Assembly: GCF_000240165.1 (NCBI RefSeq)
Contig: NC_017586.1
Span: forward strand, 3,968,001 to 4,032,000
Origin: Streptantibioticus cattleyicolor NRRL 8057 = DSM 46488
Lineage (GTDB): Bacteria; Actinomycetota; Actinomycetes; Streptomycetales; Streptomycetaceae
Length of the DNA stretch: 64,000 nt
Direction: 5' to 3'
The notes beneath the pieces are model-generated. The model worked only from the letters and a program-made list of their open reading frames with translations. It ran no database searches and was not told the origin of the DNA. The translations under genes were made by a program, and so were the position numbers. Positions within the stretch are counted from its first letter, which is position 1, and every line of letters starts with the position of its first letter. Positions 436 to 8,293 of the stretch are shown piece by piece.

Positions 436-2061
436 TCAGCTCGGGGCGGGTGGAGGGGCGAGTTCGGAGAGCATCGCCGCGCGGAGGCGGAGGGTGCTGA
501 CGAGGCGTTGGAAGGCTTCGGTCCAGTAGGCGGTGGCGCCGGGGGAGCCGTCGGGGGGGTCTTCGGGGGTGGCGGTCAGGGGGGTCAGGCGGTTGGCCTG
601 GGCGGGGTCGAGGCAGCGTTCGGCCAGGCCCATGACGCCGCTGAAGCTCCACGGGTAGCTGCCCGCCTCGCGGGCGATCTCGAGGGCGTCGACCACGGCG
701 CGGCCCAGCGGTTCGGCCCACGGCACCGCGCAGGCGCCGAGCATCTGGAACGCCTCGGAGAGCCCGTGGGAGTCGATGAAGCGGGCGACCCATGCCGCCC
801 GTTCGTCCTCCGGCAGGACCGACAGCAGCTTGGCCGGGTCGCCCATCGAGGCGACCACGCCCGCCGGGCCGGGCGGCGGCCCGAGCAGTGCCCGCGCCCA
901 GCCGGGGTCGCGCTGCCGTACCGCCGCCCGGCACCAGGCGGCGTGCAGATCCGGCTGCCAGTCGTCGTCCACCGGCAGCGCGGTGATCTCCTCCGGGCGC
1001 AGTCCGCCGAAGACCCGGGTCCACACCGCCAGCGGCGCCGCCTCCACCAACTGCCCGAACCACCAGGCGCGTTCGCCGCGGCCGGACGGCGGAACGGGGC
1101 TCACCCCGTCACGTTCCATCGCCGCGTCGCAGGCATGCGGCGCGGCCACGGCTATGTGCGGACCGCTCGCGCCGTGGCGCAGGAAGACGCAGCGCACCGC
1201 CCGTTCGCCCATCCGGGCGGCCAGCGCCGAGCCGGGCAGGGCGGCCAGCAGCTCGGCCGCGGTGGCGCGTACGGTGCGGCTGCGGTCGGCGAGCGCCTGC
1301 TCCAGGAAGTCCTCGTCGGCCAGGCTCAGCCCGGTGCGCAGCGAGTCGGCGAACATCAGCCGGTCCTCGGCGCGTTCCCGCTGCCAGGTGGTGCGCAGCA
1401 GGGCGAGGCCGGCCGCCGGGTCGGTGGTGCGCAACCCGCTGAGCAGGGCGACGCGTTCGGCGAAGAGCCCTTCCTCCCACAGTCGCCGGGTGGCCCGCGG
1501 GTCGGCGGCGGCGTCCCCGGCGGCGCTGCGGTTGGCGGCGCGCAGCGCGAACCGCCAGTCGGGGTTGAGCTCGGCCAGCCACAGGGCCCGTGGTCCGGCG
1601 AGGGTGAGCGCGTCGGGGCGCAGGTCGGTACGGGCCCGGGCGGCGTCCAGCAGCGCGGGCAGCGCTTCCTCGGGGGCGCGGTAGCCGTACGCGTTGGCCG
1701 CCGCCAGCCACTGCGGCAGCAGTTCGCCGAGGCTGGGCGCGGTGCCGCGGCGGCCGGCGGACGGACCGGCGCCGGACCGTTCGCTCAGCAGCGCCGCGAG
1801 CCTGCCCCGGGCGGCCTGCGGCACCACCGGCCGGGTGTCCCGGACGGCGGGCCGCGGTCGTACGGCCGCGCGCACCGGACGCGCCCCGGCCCGCCGCCGC
1901 ACCGCGGCCACCGCCGCCGCGTCCAGCAGCGCCACCGCCGGATCGTCCGCCCCGGCGGCCAACCCCGCGGGTATCCGCCGGTCGGTGCCGACGAGCGCGG
2001 CGGAGACCAGCTCGGCCCAGGAGGGCGTGGCCGGCGCCGGGGCGCGTTCGCGGCCGGTCAC
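436..2061 (-). CDS. DUF5691 family protein
   Basis: This 541-residue protein starts at GTG 2061, which overlaps the TGA of the upstream SWIM gene by 4 bp (GTGA), so the two are almost certainly translated together. It resembles the actinobacterial DUF5691 family: an N-terminal WAELVSAALVGTDRR segment, then Ala/Leu-rich helical stretches that look like HEAT-type repeats (for example AELLAALPGSALAARMGER near the middle). No catalytic motif is recognised and no signal peptide or membrane segment is visible, so a cytosolic scaffold or adaptor role is likely but inferred. It is the second gene of the minus-strand half of a divergent locus whose plus-strand half encodes a MoxR ATPase, a DUF5682 protein and a VWA protein. 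Confidence 0.8.
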   Translation of the reverse strand: MTGRERAPAPATPSWAELVSAALVGTDRRIPAGLAAGADDPAVALLDAAAVAAVRRRAGARPVRAAVRPRPAVRDTRPVVPQAARGRLAALLSERSGAGPSAGRRGTAPSLGELLPQWLAAANAYGYRAPEEALPALLDAARARTDLRPDALTLAGPRALWLAELNPDWRFALRAANRSAAGDAAADPRATRRLWEEGLFAERVALLSGLRTTDPAAGLALLRTTWQRERAEDRLMFADSLRTGLSLADEDFLEQALADRSRTVRATAAELLAALPGSALAARMGERAVRCVFLRHGASGPHIAVAAPHACDAAMERDGVSPVPPSGRGERAWWFGQLVEAAPLAVWTRVFGGLRPEEITALPVDDDWQPDLHAAWCRAAVRQRDPGWARALLGPPPGPAGVVASMGDPAKLLSVLPEDERAAWVARFIDSHGLSEAFQMLGACAVPWAEPLGRAVVDALEIAREAGSYPWSFSGVMGLAERCLDPAQANRLTPLTATPEDPPDGSPGATAYWTEAFQRLVSTLRLRAAMLSELAPPPAPS

Positions 2062-3428
2062 AGCGCCACCGCCTCGGGACGTGCCGGGTCGTGGGCCACC
2101 CAGGTGGTCAGCGGGGCGAAGCCGTGGTGGCCCAGGGTGCCGAAGACGGTGACCGGATCGCCGCCGGAGACGGCGGGCAGTCGCCACAGGGAGGGCCGGC
2201 CGATCCGGCGGCGGTCCACCGGGAGCGCCCAGGCGCCGCCCGCGTCGGCCAGCTGCCAGCCGGTCTCGCACGGCACCGGGACCACACCGGCCAGCACCAC
2301 CGGCCACTCCTCCAGCCACGGATCGGCACGCACCGCCTCCCCGTACGCGTCCAGCGCCGCCTCCACCCCGATGCCGGGGGGTACCGGGCCGGGGCCCGGG
2401 GCGCCGTGGCGTGGGCCGAGGGCGGCGCGCAGCCGTATCGCGCCGGGGTGGTAGGCGAGTTCGGCGTCGAGCACCGCGCCGACCGGCAGCGACACCTCGG
2501 GCGGGCGGCCCCGGGCGCCGTAGGAGAGCAGCAGGGCGGGGCGTTCGCCGTCCAGGCCGTGCAGCCAGATCCGGCGGGTCGTCAGCCGTTCGTCGCCCGA
2601 GTCGTGCTGGGCGAGGACGAGCCAGCGGTCGCGCACGGTGCGGCCGGCGAGCAGCCCGGCCGCCTCGACGGTGAAGCCGACGCGGGACCGGACGGTGGCG
2701 GCCAGCGGCCCGGGCAGCGCGTCGCCACGCAGACAGCCGCGGGCGAGGAGGTGGAGCAGGCCGCTCTCCTCCAGCATCCGGGAGGGCCACTCGGTGCCGG
2801 TGTGCGGTATGGCGGCCAACTCCCGTACCCGGGCGGCGAGTCCGGGCGCCTGGGCGTCGACCATGCGGGCGGCGATCTCGTCCCAGACGCGGCCGTCCCG
2901 GGCGTCGGGCGCGGCCAGTCCGGCGCGCAGCCGGTCGGCGAGGCGCTGTTCCAGCTCGGCGGCGCCCGCGGCGACCCGGTGGGCCCGCCGTTCGGCGCGG
3001 CGGCGGGCGGCCTGCGGATCGGCGCGGGCCGTACGGGGGCCGGCGGGGCGGGGCTCCGGGCGGGCGGCGAGCCATGGTGTCACCCATTCGGGTGGTTCGG
3101 CGGCGGGGACGTCCGTACCGGCGTCGCGCGCCCACAGCGACAGCAGGGCGAGGGCGTGTTCGCACGGTGCCTCGCGGCTGCGGCACGTGCAGTGGAACGC
3201 CGGTCCGGACAGGTCGGCGACGGTCTCGTACGGCGGGCCGGAGCCGTCCGCGCACCGTCCCCACACCGTGCCGCCGGCCCCGGGCGCCCGGTCGTCCGAC
3301 GGTGGCGACCAACCCGTGCCGGACCAGGGCCCCGGCTTCCCGAGCCGGTCGCCCACGGTGCGTGAGGCGGCGTCGGGAGCGAGCGCGAGCACCCGCTCCA
3401 CCGGCCACCGCGATGGGGTCTCCTCCAT
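2058..3428 (-). CDS. SWIM zinc finger family protein
   Basis: This 456-residue protein carries a SWIM zinc-binding motif near its N-terminus: Cys80-x-Cys82, Cys89-x-His91 (FHCTCRSREAPCEHAL). SWIM domains bind zinc and mediate DNA or protein contacts. The rest is alpha/beta sequence with no recognised enzyme motif; conserved-looking stretches include VLAQHDSGDERLTTRRIWL. The start is set by ATG 3428, which lies only 7 nt after a clear -10 element (see the promoter at 3436-3458). That leaves no room for a Shine-Dalgarno sequence, so the mRNA is probably leaderless. The TGA overlaps the GTG of the DUF5691 gene. It is divergent from the MoxR-DUF5682-VWA operon and probably functions with it. Confidence 0.85.
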   Translation of the reverse strand: MEETPSRWPVERVLALAPDAASRTVGDRLGKPGPWSGTGWSPPSDDRAPGAGGTVWGRCADGSGPPYETVADLSGPAFHCTCRSREAPCEHALALLSLWARDAGTDVPAAEPPEWVTPWLAARPEPRPAGPRTARADPQAARRRAERRAHRVAAGAAELEQRLADRLRAGLAAPDARDGRVWDEIAARMVDAQAPGLAARVRELAAIPHTGTEWPSRMLEESGLLHLLARGCLRGDALPGPLAATVRSRVGFTVEAAGLLAGRTVRDRWLVLAQHDSGDERLTTRRIWLHGLDGERPALLLSYGARGRPPEVSLPVGAVLDAELAYHPGAIRLRAALGPRHGAPGPGPVPPGIGVEAALDAYGEAVRADPWLEEWPVVLAGVVPVPCETGWQLADAGGAWALPVDRRRIGRPSLWRLPAVSGGDPVTVFGTLGHHGFAPLTTWVAHDPARPEAVAL

Positions 3429-3435
3429 GCCCCTC

Positions 3436-3458
3436 ACGCTACGAGCGGCCACTGACAA
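3436..3458 (-). promoter_or_regulatory. DNA-damage-type promoter (RecA-NDp/PafBC motif) for the SWIM gene
   Basis: Read on the minus strand the sequence is TTGTCAGTGGC, six bases (CGCTCG), then TAGCGT. This matches exactly the LexA-independent damage promoter known from actinobacteria (TTGTCAGTG-N8-TAnnnT, first seen at recA, controlled by PafBC in mycobacteria). The transcript start expected 7-8 nt after the -10 falls on or next to the SWIM ATG at 3428. Damage induction is inferred from the motif. Confidence 0.75.
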
Positions 3459-3507
3459 TGGCCCCGGCAACTGCCCTGACCTGCAAGGACATTGGCGGGC
3501 AGGGCGA

Positions 3508-3530
3508 TTGTCAGTGGCGTGGTGCAAGGT
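3508..3530 (+). promoter_or_regulatory. DNA-damage-type promoter for the MoxR operon
   Basis: TTGTCAGTGGC, six bases (GTGGTG), then CAAGGT. The -35 part is identical to the one facing the other way; the -10 has C in place of the first T. The two TTGTCAGTGG boxes form an 11-bp inverted repeat (3449-3459 with 3507-3517). The leader to the ATG at 3730 would be about 190 nt; I see no other gene in it. Confidence 0.6.
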
Positions 3531-3729
3531 GGATGGCATCCGCGGTCCGCAGGGGTCGGGCGGAACGCGGCCGTGCTTGCGCCATGTCCGCCGAATCGTG
3601 CCGTGCCGCCGGTGAAGTGCCGCCGCCCGCGAGGGAGTCGGCCGTCCGCCGCCGTATCCCGTGACCGCGAACCGTCTCCATTGCCACTTCCGATCCGCGT
3701 TCCGTCCACTCGTTCTCGCTGGGGGAGCC

Positions 3730-4818
3730 ATGACCGAACAGGCCCTGCGGCCACACGCCGAGGACGCCTTCGCCGAGGAGCTGAAGGCGCTCGCCGCCGC
3801 CGACGACCGGCCGCGTCCGCCGCGCTGGAACCTGTCGCCCTGGGCCGTGGCGAAGTACCTGCTCGGCGGCACGCTGCCGGACGGCACCGTGATCACCCCG
3901 AAGTACACCGGTCCCCGGCGCGTCGTCGAGGTGGCCGTCAGCACGCTCGCCACCGACCGGGCGCTGCTGCTGCTCGGCGTGCCCGGCACCGCCAAGACGT
4001 GGGTCTCCGAACACCTCGCGGCGGCGGTCAGCGGTGACTCCACGCTGCTGGTGCAGGGCACCGCGGGCACCCCGGAGGAGGCGATCCGCTACGGCTGGAA
4101 CTACGCCCAGTTGCTGGCCGAAGGCCCGTCCCGGAAGGCCCTGGTACCGGGACCGGTCATGCGGGCCATGGCCGACGGCCGGCTCGCGCGCGTCGAGGAG
4201 CTGACCCGGATCCCCGCCGACGTGCAGGACACGCTGATCACTGTGCTCTCCGAGAAGACACTGCCGATACCGGAGTTGGGCGAGGAGGTGATGGCGGTGC
4301 GCGGGTTCAACCTGATCGCCACCGCCAACGACCGCGACCGCGGGGTCAACGAGCTGTCCAGCGCCCTGCGCCGGCGGTTCAACACCGTGGTCCTGCCACT
4401 GCCCGCAACCGTCGAGGAGGAGGTCTCCATCGTCACCCGCCGGGTCGCGCAGATCGGCCGCGGCATCGACCTGCCGCCGGTGCCGGAGGGGGCGGACGAG
4501 ATCCGGCGCGTCGTCACCGTCTTCCGCGAGCTGCGCGAAGGGGTCACCGCCGACGGGCGCACCCGGGTCAAGTCGCCCTCCGGCACGCTCTCCACCGCCG
4601 AGGCCATCTCCGTGGTCACCGGTGGCCTCGCCCTGGCGGCCCACTTCGGCGACGGTGTGCTGCGCCCCGCGGACATCGCGGCGGGGATGCTCGGCGCGGT
4701 GGTCCGCGACCCGGCGGCCGACCGGCTGGTCTGGCGGGAATACCTGGAGTCGGTGGTGCGGGAGCGGGAGGGCTGGCAGGACTTCTACCGGGCGTGCCGG
4801 GAGGTGACGTCGGCATGA
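3730..4818 (+). CDS. MoxR-type AAA ATPase
   Basis: This 362-residue AAA ATPase is of the MoxR/AAA_5 class, whose members act with VWA-domain partners as chaperones or remodelers. Visible motifs are Walker A GVPGTAKT (residues 83-90), a Walker B-like strand ending RVEEL where the usual Asp-Glu is Glu-Glu, sensor 1 in LIATANDRDRG, and an arginine-finger region LSSALRRRFN. ATG 3730 is preceded by GGGGGAG. It is the first gene of an operon; its stop overlaps the next start (ATGA). The direct VWA neighbour at 7112 is the expected partner. The Glu-Glu may be normal for this subfamily. Confidence 0.9.
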   Translation: MTEQALRPHAEDAFAEELKALAAADDRPRPPRWNLSPWAVAKYLLGGTLPDGTVITPKYTGPRRVVEVAVSTLATDRALLLLGVPGTAKTWVSEHLAAAVSGDSTLLVQGTAGTPEEAIRYGWNYAQLLAEGPSRKALVPGPVMRAMADGRLARVEELTRIPADVQDTLITVLSEKTLPIPELGEEVMAVRGFNLIATANDRDRGVNELSSALRRRFNTVVLPLPATVEEEVSIVTRRVAQIGRGIDLPPVPEGADEIRRVVTVFRELREGVTADGRTRVKSPSGTLSTAEAISVVTGGLALAAHFGDGVLRPADIAAGMLGAVVRDPAADRLVWREYLESVVREREGWQDFYRACREVTSA

Positions 4819-7115
4819 CCGCCCGGACGCGCCCCGCGGACCCGCCGCCCGCCCCGGCCGGCTCCCCGTTGCTGCTCGGGGTGCGCCACCACGGGCCCGG
4901 GTCGGCGCGCGGGGTGCGGGCGGCGCTGGAACGCCACCGGCCGGCGGTGGTGCTGGTCGAGGGGCCGCGCGAGGCGGACGCGGTGGTGGAGCTGGCCGGG
5001 GCGGAGGGCATGCGGCCACCGGTGGCGTTGCTGGCGCACGCGGTGGACGACCCGGCGGTGGCGGCGTTCTGGCCGTTCGCGGAGTTCTCACCGGAGTGGC
5101 AGGCGATCCGCTGGGCGGTGGAGCGGCGGGTTCCGGTGCGCTTCATCGACCTGCCGGCCGCGCACACCCTGGCGTTGCGGCAGGCGCCGCCGGAGGAGGA
5201 CGGCGTACGGGCGGACCCGCTCGCCGTGCTGGCCCGCACCGCCGGGTACGACGACCCGGAGCGCTGGTGGGAGGACGCGGTGGAGCACCGGGCGGGGGAC
5301 GGTGACGTCACGGCGGCGTTCGCGGCGGTGGCCGAGGCGATGACGGTGCTGCGGGGGTCGCCGGGGGAGGGGGACCCGGGGGGTGTGGAGGCCGCCCGGG
5401 AGGCCCACATGCGGCTGCGGATCCGGGAGGCGGTGCGGGAGTTCGGGCACGCGGCGGTGGTCTGCGGGGCGTGGCACGTACCGGCGCTGGCCCGGGCGCG
5501 TCCGGTGACCGCCGACCGGCAGGCGGTGCGGGGGCTGCCGAAGGTGCGGGCCGCGATCACCTGGGTGCCGTGGACCCATCGGCGGCTGACCCGGAGCAGC
5601 GGTTACGGCGCCGGGATCGACTCCCCGGGGTGGTACGCGCATCTGTTCCGGCACGCGGGGCGGGAGCCGGGCGCCGTGCTCGCGGGGTGGCTGACCACGG
5701 TGGCCGGGCTGTTGCGGGAGGAGGACCTGCCGGTCTCCACGGCGCACGTGATCGAGGCGGTGCGGCTGGCGGAGACGCTCGCGGCGCTGCGCGGGCGCCC
5801 GTTGGCGGGGCTGGCGGAGAGCCTGGACGCGGCGCGGGCGGTGCTGTGCGAGGGGTCCGAGGTGCCGCTGGCGCTCGTGCGGGAGCGGCTGGTGGTCGGC
5901 GAGGCGCTGGGCCAGGTGCCGCCCGAGGCGCCGGCGGTGCCGCTCGCCCGCGACCTCGCCCGACTGCAAAGGGCGTTGAGGCTGCGTCCGGAGGCGGCCG
6001 AGCGCCGGCTCGACCTCGATCTGCGCAACGACACCGACGCGCGGCGCAGCCGGCTGCTGCACCGGCTCGCCCTGCTCGGCGTCGACTGGGGGCACCCGGA
6101 TACGTCCCGCACCGGCGGCACGGGCACGTTCCGGGAGAGCTGGCGGCTGCGCTGGGAGCCGGAGTCGGCGGTGCGGGTGGCCGAGGCGGGCGTGTGGGGC
6201 ACCACGGTACGGGCCGCGGCGACCGCGAAGACGCAGGACGCGGCGGGGTCGGCGGCCACCCTCGCCGAGGTCACCGCGCTCGCCGAACGCTGCCTGCCGG
6301 CCGGGCTGCCGGAGGCGCTGCGCACGGTGACACGGGCCCTCGCCGACAAGGCGGCGCTCGACACGGACGTCTCCCAACTGGCCCAGGCGCTGCCCGCGTT
6401 GGTGCGCTCGGTGCGCTACGGGGACGTGCGGGACACCGACGCGGCGGCGTTGCGGGAGGTCGCCGAGGGGATCGCGCTGCGGGTGTGCGTGGGGCTGCCG
6501 CCGGCCTGCGCGGGGCTGGACGAGTCGGGGGCCACGGTGATGCGCGGGCACCTGGACGCGGTGCACGCGGCGGTCGGGCTGCTCGGCGGTGCCGGGCCGG
6601 GGGAGCGGTGGGCGGCCACGCTCGGCGTGCTGGCCCGGCGGGACGCGGCGGTCTCCGGGCTGATCCGCGGCCGGGCGGTCCGCCTGCTGCTGGACGACGG
6701 GAGGCTCACCGCGCCGGAGGCGGAACGGCTGATGGCCCTGGCCCTGTCGCCCGGCACCCCGCACCGTGACGCGGCGGCCTTGATCGACGGCTTCCTGGCC
6801 GACGGCGGCATGCTCCTGGTCCACGACGAACGGCTGCTGGGCCTGGTCGACCGGTGGCTGACGGCGGTCCCGAAGGAGGCGTTCACCGACGTGCTGCCGC
6901 TGGTACGGCGGACGTTCGGGCGGTTCGAGGCCGGGGTGCGGCGGTCGGTGGGGGAGCTGGTGCGCCGCGGCACCGGCGGCGGCGCGGCGCGCGCGGCCGG
7001 GCCGGCGGAGGGCCTGCCGGGGTTCGCCCCTGAGCTGGACGCGGCCCGCGCCGACGCCGTACTGCCGGTGCTGCGGCTGCTGTTGGGACACCGGGAGGAG
7101 GGGGTGACGGCGTGA
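4815..7115 (+). CDS. DUF5682 family protein
   Basis: This 766-residue cytosolic-looking protein belongs to the DUF5682 family, usually found between a MoxR ATPase and a VWA gene, as here. The N-terminal third has a strand LLLGVRHHGPGSARG (about residues 19-33), a VLVEGP strand near residue 50 and a CGAWH motif near residue 217. That spacing of HH, EGP and GxxH recalls the TraB/EreA/ChaN hydrolase-like fold; this is my inference. The C-terminal two thirds are helical and Ala/Leu/Arg-rich. It overlaps its upstream neighbour by ATGA and its downstream neighbour by GTGA, so the three are translationally coupled. No signal peptide or membrane segment is visible. Confidence 0.82.
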   Translation: MTARTRPADPPPAPAGSPLLLGVRHHGPGSARGVRAALERHRPAVVLVEGPREADAVVELAGAEGMRPPVALLAHAVDDPAVAAFWPFAEFSPEWQAIRWAVERRVPVRFIDLPAAHTLALRQAPPEEDGVRADPLAVLARTAGYDDPERWWEDAVEHRAGDGDVTAAFAAVAEAMTVLRGSPGEGDPGGVEAAREAHMRLRIREAVREFGHAAVVCGAWHVPALARARPVTADRQAVRGLPKVRAAITWVPWTHRRLTRSSGYGAGIDSPGWYAHLFRHAGREPGAVLAGWLTTVAGLLREEDLPVSTAHVIEAVRLAETLAALRGRPLAGLAESLDAARAVLCEGSEVPLALVRERLVVGEALGQVPPEAPAVPLARDLARLQRALRLRPEAAERRLDLDLRNDTDARRSRLLHRLALLGVDWGHPDTSRTGGTGTFRESWRLRWEPESAVRVAEAGVWGTTVRAAATAKTQDAAGSAATLAEVTALAERCLPAGLPEALRTVTRALADKAALDTDVSQLAQALPALVRSVRYGDVRDTDAAALREVAEGIALRVCVGLPPACAGLDESGATVMRGHLDAVHAAVGLLGGAGPGERWAATLGVLARRDAAVSGLIRGRAVRLLLDDGRLTAPEAERLMALALSPGTPHRDAAALIDGFLADGGMLLVHDERLLGLVDRWLTAVPKEAFTDVLPLVRRTFGRFEAGVRRSVGELVRRGTGGGAARAAGPAEGLPGFAPELDAARADAVLPVLRLLLGHREEGVTA

Positions 7116-8293
7116 GCGGGGCGGCGGAGGAGACCGTGGACGGGGAGCGGCTGCGGCGCTGGCGGATGGTGCTCGGCGGGGGCGCGGCGGACGGCACGGG
7201 GCGGCTGCTCACCGGGCGGGACGCGGAGATGGACCGGACGCTGGCGGCGTTGTACGGCGGGCCGCAGGAGGCCGGCGGGCCGCCGGGCGACCGGGGAGCC
7301 GGGCTCGGGGCCTCGGCGCCCCGGGTGGCCCGCTGGCTCGGTGACGTCCGCCGGTACTTCCCGGCCTCCGTGGTCCAGGTGATGCAGCGGGACGCCATCG
7401 ACCGGCTCGGGCTGTCCGCGCTGTTGCTGGAGCCGGAGATGCTGGAGGCGGTCGAGGCCGACGTGCACCTGGTCGGCACCCTGGTCTCGTTGCACCACGC
7501 GATGCCGGAGACCACCCGGCGCACCGCGCGGCTGGTGGTGGGCAAGGTGGTGCGGGAGCTGGAGGCGCGGCTGGCGGGCCGCACCCGGGCCGTGCTGGGC
7601 GGGGCGCTCGACCGCTCGGCGCGGGTGGCACGGCCCCGCCACCGCGACATCGACTGGCACCGGACGATACGCGCCAACCTCGGCACCTACCTGCCCGAGC
7701 ACCGCACGGTGGTGCCGGAGCGGCTGGTGGGCCACGGGCGGGCGGCGCGCGGGGTGCGCAAGGAGGTGGTGCTCTGCGTCGACCAGTCGGGCTCGATGGC
7801 GGCGTCGGTGGTGTACGCGTCGGTCTTCGGCGCCGTGCTCGCCTCGATGCGGTCGGTCGCCACCCGGCTGGTGGTCTTCGACACCGCCGTCGCCGACCTC
7901 ACCGACCAGCTCGACGACCCGGTCGACGTGCTCTTCGGCGTGCGCCTCGGTGGCGGTACGGACATCAACCGGGCGCTCGCCCACTGCCAGTCGCTGATCG
8001 GCCGTCCCGCCGAGACGGTGGTGGTGCTCATCAGCGACCTGTTCGAGGGCGGCATACGGGAGGAGATGCTGCGCCGGGTGGCGGCGATGACGGGGGCGGG
8101 GGTGCGGTTCGTGGTGCTGCCGGCGCTCTCCGACGAGGGCGCGCCCGCGTACGACCGGCGGAACGCGGCGGCGCTGGCCGCGTTGGGGGTGCCGGTGTTC
8201 GCCTGCACGCCCGACCTGTTCCCGGAGGTGATGGCGGCGGCGATCGAGAAACGGCCGTTGCCGATACCCGACATGGCGTCGCATCAGGCATAA
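7112..8293 (+). CDS. VWA domain-containing protein (CoxE-like)
   Basis: This 393-residue protein starts at GTG 7112 inside the stop of the DUF5682 gene. A C-terminal von Willebrand factor A domain holds a complete metal-ion site: DQSGS at residues 224-228, a threonine in GGGTDIN, and an aspartate in LISDLFEGG. VWA proteins of this class are the usual partners of MoxR ATPases and probably recruit substrates. The N-terminal half (about 200 residues) is helical, with conserved-looking SARVARPRHRDIDWHRTI just before the VWA domain. It is the last gene of the operon. Confidence 0.9.
   Translation: MSGAAEETVDGERLRRWRMVLGGGAADGTGRLLTGRDAEMDRTLAALYGGPQEAGGPPGDRGAGLGASAPRVARWLGDVRRYFPASVVQVMQRDAIDRLGLSALLLEPEMLEAVEADVHLVGTLVSLHHAMPETTRRTARLVVGKVVRELEARLAGRTRAVLGGALDRSARVARPRHRDIDWHRTIRANLGTYLPEHRTVVPERLVGHGRAARGVRKEVVLCVDQSGSMAASVVYASVFGAVLASMRSVATRLVVFDTAVADLTDQLDDPVDVLFGVRLGGGTDINRALAHCQSLIGRPAETVVVLISDLFEGGIREEMLRRVAAMTGAGVRFVVLPALSDEGAPAYDRRNAAALAALGVPVFACTPDLFPEVMAAAIEKRPLPIPDMASHQA

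Follow-up and report, generated by a model that had tools for sequence, protein, structure and literature searches.

RecA-independent DNA-damage promoters of the RecA-NDp type carry a box whose consensus we take to be TTGTCRGTG-N8-TAnnnT, a formula that reportedly goes back to Gamulin et al. in 2004. The motif and its regulator, PafBC, are both named in the accessible portions of three papers, which do not print the letters (PMC6789036, PMC8223512, PMC11804915). In Streptomyces, promoters of this kind were reported earlier for recA and for SCO6735 (excerpts of PMC5087735 and PMC9411070), and that of S. coelicolor SCO6735 is UV-inducible (excerpt of PMC5087735). A study of S. venezuelae published in the Journal of Bacteriology in 2022 states, in the part available, that an initial search suggested that the PafBC motif of M. 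smegmatis is not conserved in that organism, and that a RecA/LexA-independent damage response in Streptomyces remains to be shown (PMC9380542).

On the protein side, NorQ/NorD and RavA/ViaA are AAA+/VWA remodelling pairs whose partners act together. In E. coli K-12, the row yehL-yehM-yehP-yehQ encodes MoxR, DUF5682, VWA_CoxE and SWIM proteins, with the WGR gene yehF lying approximately 7 kb upstream and yehI upstream as well. No function is named for this row in the E. coli annotation, and the literature found on the yeh genes consists, in its accessible text, of genome reports and otherwise of off-topic papers. The MoxR-vWA ternary conflict systems likewise combine a MoxR ATPase and a vWA protein; a term search of the main text of the paper that describes them returned no occurrence of SWIM, WGR, DUF5682, DUF5691, YehL or 'DNA damage' (PMC7159879).

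The locus that is compared here with these systems lies in a 64,000-nucleotide stretch of the genome of Streptantibioticus cattleyicolor (hereafter "the window"), and its features are listed in Table 1. Two boxes face away from each other between a SWIM zinc-finger gene and a gene for a MoxR-type ATPase, and their sequence, conservation and geometry make it very likely that they form a damage-inducible promoter pair. We hold with considerable confidence that this region is a divergent pair of RecA-independent DNA-damage promoters of the RecA-NDp/PafBC type, with PafBC as the likely activator. The locus shares with the RecA-NDp/PafBC promoters of mycobacteria and of Streptomyces recA and SCO6735 the core, the 8-nt spacing, the -10 of its minus box and the company of repair genes, and differs from them by its divergent arrangement, by a third element and by a CAnnnT -10 on one side. 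No report of a RecA-NDp promoter at a SWIM/MoxR locus was found in a search of the literature.

Table 1. Features of the divergent locus, in window positions.
Feature	Position	Strand	Remark
DUF5691 gene	436..2061	-	GTG overlaps SWIM stop (GTGA)
SWIM zinc-finger protein gene, 456 aa	2058..3428	-	motif recognized by eye
SWIM ATG	3426..3428	-	+30 from first base of the box, 7 nt past the -10; predicted leaderless
Minus -10 hexamer TAGCGT	3436..3441	-	read directly in the window
Minus box, TTGTCAGTGGC-CGCTCG-TAGCGT	3436..3458	-	
Minus-box core TTGTCAGTGGC, SWIM promoter	3448..3458	-	exact; RecA-NDp core
Third element GCAGGT (ACCTGC on the plus strand)	3479..3484	-	starts 26 nt upstream of the minus core
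Plus-box core TTGTCAGTGGC, MoxR promoter	3508..3518	+	exact; RecA-NDp core
Plus box, TTGTCAGTGGC-GTGGTG-CAAGGT	3508..3530	+	
Plus -10 hexamer CAAGGT, first base C	3525..3530	+	read directly in the window
MoxR-type AAA+ ATPase gene	3730..4818	+	GGGGGAG before ATG
DUF5682 gene	4815..7115	+	ATGA overlap with moxR
VWA (CoxE-like) gene	7112..8293	+	GTGA overlap with DUF5682

Both boxes contain TTGTCRGTG, the core of the presumed consensus, and in both the distance from core to -10 is 8 nt. The minus box, whose hexamer fits TAnnnT, follows TTGTCRGTG-N8-TAnnnT throughout, and the exact match that the original prediction had claimed for it is confirmed. The divergent pair that had been proposed is present in so far as both 11-mers are exact and lie where they had been placed, but the plus -10 begins with C and fails TAnnnT, which makes the plus box a variant and not a strict member of the RecA-NDp class. 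Within the window, the exact 11-mer TTGTCAGTGGC occurs in these two copies only, with 0.014 exact copies expected from base composition, and the probability of a second divergent copy within 100 bp is about 1e-5. The window holds 15 matches to the 11-mer, 13 of which carry one or two mismatches, a total near the mean of 13.2 obtained from shuffled windows; a minus box complete with its TAnnnT -10 arose in none of 100 shuffles. An origin by chance is ruled out by the shuffles, by the control on the reversed genome, by conservation among orthologues and by the class-wide counts. An ordinary sigma-70 promoter, in which TTGTCA would resemble the -35 hexamer, was also considered and was dropped because TTGTCA lies only 11 nt from the -10, which is far too close for a sigma-70 -35 element.

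Damage control could also be exerted by LexA, as in the SOS response, and the available part of one paper describes some mycobacterial genes that carry both types of box (PMC8223512). We regard this as extremely unlikely here, since CGAAC-N4-GTTCG, with up to two mismatches allowed, has no match in window positions 3208-5998; a scan for the shorter GAAC-N4-GTTC in positions 3300-3740 gave two matches, at 3387 and 3704, each with two mismatches. The LexA consensus published for S. venezuelae is given as tCGAAC-N4-GNNCGa in the accessible text of PMC9380542.

The SWIM-DUF5691 and MoxR-DUF5682-VWA genes look like two translationally coupled operons; the boxes would serve five genes, as the original prediction of a five-gene locus had it, but through two transcription units. 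The SWIM-DUF5691 mRNA is predicted from the position of its start codon to be leaderless. A start codon stands at +30 of the minus box in all 21 family orthologues of a first sample, and an ATG does so in 87 of 92 Streptomycetaceae loci among the matches listed from the scan described below. At the 24 consensus sites of the S. cattleyicolor genome, reading-frame starts peak at the same distance (7/24, with a mean of 0.56 per position), in a group that includes uvrB, dnaX, the exonuclease III-like gene, rarA and the SWIM gene of the window, while the usual start codons of recA and ruvC, judged by eye, lie further downstream than +30. This distance fixes the SWIM start, and also serves as a filter for true sites.

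These 24 sites are the matches to TTGTCRGTG-N8-TAnnnT in the 8.1-Mb genome, and the reversed control gave none. Nine precede repair or replication genes: uvrB, ogt (O6-methylguanine methyltransferase), dnaX, recA, an xthA-like (exonuclease III-like) gene, ruvC, rarA (MgsA/RarA ATPase), and the genes for a RecD2-HHH protein and a PD-(D/E)XK nuclease. Of two more, one lies before the WGR-domain gene next to uvrB and the other before the SWIM gene of the window. For the other 13 there is no clear tie to repair; their targets encode a ferredoxin, an amine-oxidase-like protein, an ABC permease, FolB, Z1, PfkB and an M78 peptidase, or are DUF6317-type small genes, rpoB and genes with no Pfam match, and two of these sites (L007 and L008) have no convincing gene downstream. 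Either some of the sites without a repair tie are due to chance, or the regulon is broader. The sharing of the box by recA, uvr and ruv promoters had been named beforehand as a check, and the genome motif scan indeed finds it before recA, uvrB and ruvC. PafA, PafB (WYL and WCX domains) and PafC (HTH_PafC and WYL domains) are encoded together, with the genes for PafB and PafC downstream of pafA.

Some of these sites have features of their own. The consensus box before rpoB (L014, C2:3778857-3778879) lies approximately 410 nt upstream of the rpoB start. Two further boxes (L013 and L120, C2 3674593 and 3675405) are 0.8 kb apart, the first of them preceding small DUF6317-type genes, and a repair tie is not obvious for the two. 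A second divergent pair (L003/L004, C2:1216745-1216831), with cores 41 bp apart, lies between uvrB and the gene for a WGR-domain/beta-propeller protein. Of 14 full-length WGR homologues in the family, 9 are preceded by a box whose core has no more than one mismatch; no WGR match was obtained from 15 of the 31 family genomes.

Conservation was followed in a class-wide sample of 246 genomes, 22 of which are Streptomycetaceae, and in a second sample of 31 family genomes from 17 genera. All 22 family genomes of the class sample carry between 9 and 41 consensus sites each, with 0-1 in the reversed control. Two class genomes of family f19 (G174 and G154) hold 119 and 63 consensus boxes, above the Streptomycetaceae maximum of 41, an excess that would represent either an expansion of the regulon or a repeated element. 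In the second sample, the recA box is present at 30 of 30 recA loci, with 22 exact cores and 8 with one mismatch; the 31st genome, which has recA fragments only, was left out of this count.

The divergent pair between SWIM and MoxR genes is present at all 21 family MoxR orthologues of the first sample, where minus core and -10 are exact in 21/21 and the plus core is exact in 19 and has one mismatch in 2. It was found at none of 20 paralogous MoxR loci and at none of 28 MoxR orthologues outside the family, where a lone near-match turned up in two cases (L063 and L069). As an exact pair with a gap of 35-65, it occurs in 18 of the 246 class genomes, that is, in 17 of the 22 family genomes and in one other, with a control of 0. 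Five family genomes are without the exact pair: the orthologue is missing from one, a second carries a core mismatch, and in three the gap is wider, with a core mismatch in addition in one of these. Two of the family loci (L026 and L027) have gaps of 569 and 612 bp and keep both boxes, and by eye the gap appears to contain an insertion, a small lipoprotein-like gene.

A MoxR orthologue was found in 28 of the 31 genomes of the second sample, 25 of them new with respect to the first. SWIM lies divergent within the flank at 15 of these 25 loci, and all 15 have a plus box whose core has no more than one mismatch, together with a minus box (core with up to two mismatches, ATG at +30). Five of the other ten have a plus box (L348, L352, L357, L361 and L364); in the remaining five (L360, L362 and L365-L367) no plus box reaches the threshold of at most one core mismatch, and a looser pattern gave one weak match, at L360. 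In two loci of genus g108 (L366 and L367), DUF5691 lies upstream of MoxR on the same strand and no plus box reaches the threshold, which is possibly the state that preceded the splitting of the operon.

The -10 hexamers were assessed in a scan of named genomes in which the two cores were fixed, with a gap of 35-65, and the -10s were left free. It yielded at least 119 stretches, comprising at least 92 SWIM/MoxR loci, all from Streptomycetaceae, 7 others from Streptomycetaceae and 20 from other groups; the 27 stretches that are not SWIM/MoxR loci were dropped before -10s, spacing and third element were counted. Because the scan fixed the cores only, the -10s amount to a free test, and among the matches listed the minus hexamer reads TAnnnT in 92 of 92 SWIM/MoxR loci and the plus hexamer CAnnnT in 92 of 92. 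Among the matches listed, seven exact pairs in Streptomyces (L184, L186, L191, L197, L202, L206 and L251) are not beside a SWIM or MoxR orthologue.

The invariable C at the head of the plus hexamer (92/92 among the matches listed) could be taken to mean that the minus box is the sole promoter, and that the plus box is the vestige of an inversion or has another role. The plus box also scores 17.9 with the position weight matrix, below all 23 training sites (22.0-30.0). We consider this reading improbable, since the second base (A) and the sixth (T) of the plus -10 are equally invariant (92/92 among the matches listed), the plus core and its spacer GTGGTG are, in the same matches listed, no less conserved than the minus spacer, and the plus box recurs at each of the 15 second-sample family loci with a divergent SWIM gene. 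Moreover, some CAnnnT sites of the S. cattleyicolor genome precede replication or repair genes. Of 37 sites in that genome whose -10 starts with a base other than T, 30 were looked at; further CAnnnT sites exist, some intergenic and others inside genes, and the genes downstream of the intergenic ones resemble, by eye, those for the beta clamp, the delta' subunit of polymerase III and an alkyltransferase-like protein; in this last case an ATG stands at +30. As intergenic CAnnnT sites stand before such replication- and repair-like genes, C seems to be tolerated as the first -10 base in this regulon, and a plus box that functions as a promoter is the reading retained here.

The distance between the two cores is not continuous. 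Among the matches listed, the gap in the 92 loci is 36-39 (57 loci), 48-51 (20) or 58-61 (15), with none between. A MoxR gene tree was built from the window and from the 81 of the 92 loci whose MoxR match is nearly complete, 82 rows in all. On it the gap class changes at least 21 times among the matches listed, a number that is possibly inflated, given that this is a quick gene tree. In the first sample, with the gap unlimited, 18 of 21 loci fall into the classes (36-38 in 11, 49 in 3, 60-61 in 4), and three have gaps of 171, 569 and 612. Fifteen gaps from sister genera include 36-38 in seven cases and 49 in one, the remainder being 7, 29, 29, 30, 47, 660 and 967, and because of these exceptions stepwise spacing is not a rule for the whole family. 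The uvrB/WGR pair of S. cattleyicolor, with a gap of 41, lies outside the classes too.

The steps of 36-39, 48-51 and 58-61 (among the matches listed), which look as if bound proteins met on one helix face, and the inverted repeat formed by the cores, could indicate that the pair is an operator, or the site of a repressor or nucleoid protein, instead of two promoters. Such a site would not explain, however, why each side keeps its -10 hexamer (92/92 and 92/92 among the matches listed), why the SWIM start codon follows its -10 by 7 nt, why recA and other genes have a single box of this type, or why both boxes persist in pairs spaced 7, 171 and as much as 967 nt apart; we find it highly improbable, and favor two divergent promoters.

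Inside the gap lies a third, GCAGGTCAG-like element. Among the matches listed, 80 of 92 loci contain an exact GCAGGT there, read on one strand or the other. Most copies start 14-15 nt upstream of the plus core (55 matches) or, in mirrored form, 14 nt away from the minus core (14 matches), and further copies lie at 24-27 or 37 nt; the window has the mirrored form, at 26 nt. None of the 23 other boxes of the S. cattleyicolor genome has GCAGGT within 60 nt upstream, and of 29 recA boxes 1 does. Its frequency here (80/92 among the matches listed), set against 0/23 and 1/29 elsewhere, leaves some room for the view that these are damage promoters, but that they depend on another WYL-type activator, or on PafBC together with a second factor at the GCAGGTCAG element. 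Mycobacteria also possess SiwR, a WYL activator of genotoxic stress, according to the available portion of PMC10693628. This view strikes us as rather unlikely: the core box is identical to the recA and uvrB boxes of the same genome, which fits one shared regulator, and outside the family GCAGGT/ACCTGC is absent within 60 nt upstream in 18 of 19 listed SWIM promoters. PafBC is hence kept as the activator. What is new at this locus is the fixed C of the plus -10, the third conserved element and the stepwise spacing in Streptomyces, which does not extend to all sister genera.

The locus is arranged differently in the other actinobacterial families sampled. SWIM lies on the same strand as MoxR and upstream of it in 27 of 27 loci outside Streptomycetaceae, with DUF5691 between them in 26; 27 of the 28 orthologues were used, G037, on a 7.7-kb contig, being left out. 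MoxR there is inside the row, with no divergent spacer, which accounts for the missing divergent pair. With a matrix built from 23 sites of the S. cattleyicolor genome (the window left out) and the best match near the SWIM start taken, the SWIM start falls at +29 to +31 from the best box in 21 of 27 loci, where 0.87 would be expected. Six of these 21 score at most 10 bits, and two of the six, L267 and L271, are matched by shuffles at p values of 0.36 and 0.08, so that for these six the argument rests on position and not on score. No best box is correctly placed in the remaining 6 of the 27 loci, which include one (L280) cut by the end of its contig. A k-mer search upstream of MoxR outside the family, where MoxR directly follows DUF5691, returned GC-rich words only. 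Since SWIM starts outside the family sit at +29 to +31 from their best box, the damage control of this locus looks old, and the simplest history would be that of one damage-controlled operon that was split in Streptomycetaceae, its MoxR half gaining a second box.

As regards the function of the encoded proteins, MoxR, DUF5682, VWA_CoxE and SWIM genes occur together in the window as they do in yehLMPQ, with the SWIM assignment based on a motif, C-x-C-x6-C-x-H at about residues 80-91, recognized by eye. The MoxR protein is 40% identical to YehL, and YehQ has no match to DUF5691. No Pfam, PADLOC or NCBIfam model matched the SWIM protein, and PADLOC gave no match for any of the five. The bpMoxR model reaches 19.6 bits on the MoxR protein, below its curated cut-off of 27, and the locus is not assigned to the ternary conflict systems. 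Among proteins of solved structure, those closest in sequence to the MoxR protein are midasin and NorQ, AAA+ machines that work with VWA domains or proteins. From NorQ/NorD and RavA/ViaA the locus differs by its gene company of DUF5682, DUF5691 and SWIM. The AlphaFold model of DUF5682 is poor (mean pLDDT 64), and neither a fold search (nothing at E <=0.001) nor a profile search of solved structures gave a match for it. The model of the SWIM protein is good (87.6); its fold search returned weak matches, the best at E 0.079, which include several ssDNA-binding proteins and are not counted as evidence, and the profile search one weak match to FEN-1 (E 0.03). Our best guess is an AAA+/VWA remodelling machine that is steered by partners able to bind DNA or protein.

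Taken together, these elements suggest a mechanism borrowed from mycobacteria, in which DNA damage would give rise to single-stranded DNA that activates PafBC, and activated PafBC would let the housekeeping RNA polymerase use both boxes. A leaderless SWIM-DUF5691 mRNA would then be raised leftward and, simultaneously, a leadered MoxR-DUF5682-VWA mRNA rightward, and the five proteins would probably form one AAA+/VWA remodelling machine in genotoxic stress. In Streptomycetaceae, the row would have been split into divergent halves, of which the MoxR half gained a box with a CAnnnT -10. The probable damage control of all five genes, as originally predicted, is supported by the conserved pair, its polarity, the -10s, the start distance and the presence of PafBC. 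A more extended proposal is tentative, and in our estimation doubtful as a whole: the SWIM-DUF5691-MoxR-DUF5682-VWA set may be an ancient genotoxic-stress machine, the counterpart of yehLMPQ, that has retained a leaderless PafBC-type promoter across actinobacterial families, and whose halves in Streptomyces and close relatives would be co-activated by a three-element divergent switch, with two PafBC promoters, a third factor at GCAGGTCAG, steps of ~11-12 bp and bound proteins that touch; the exceptions among sister genera lower the probability of this three-element contact switch.

The presence of the motif in the family, in 22/22 genomes of one sample and at 30/30 recA loci of another, speaks to the suggestion that it is not conserved in S. 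venezuelae, and to the question of a RecA/LexA-independent damage response in Streptomyces. In addition, to place a five-gene set that has an E. coli counterpart in the DNA-damage response would provide a first condition under which a phenotype may be sought.
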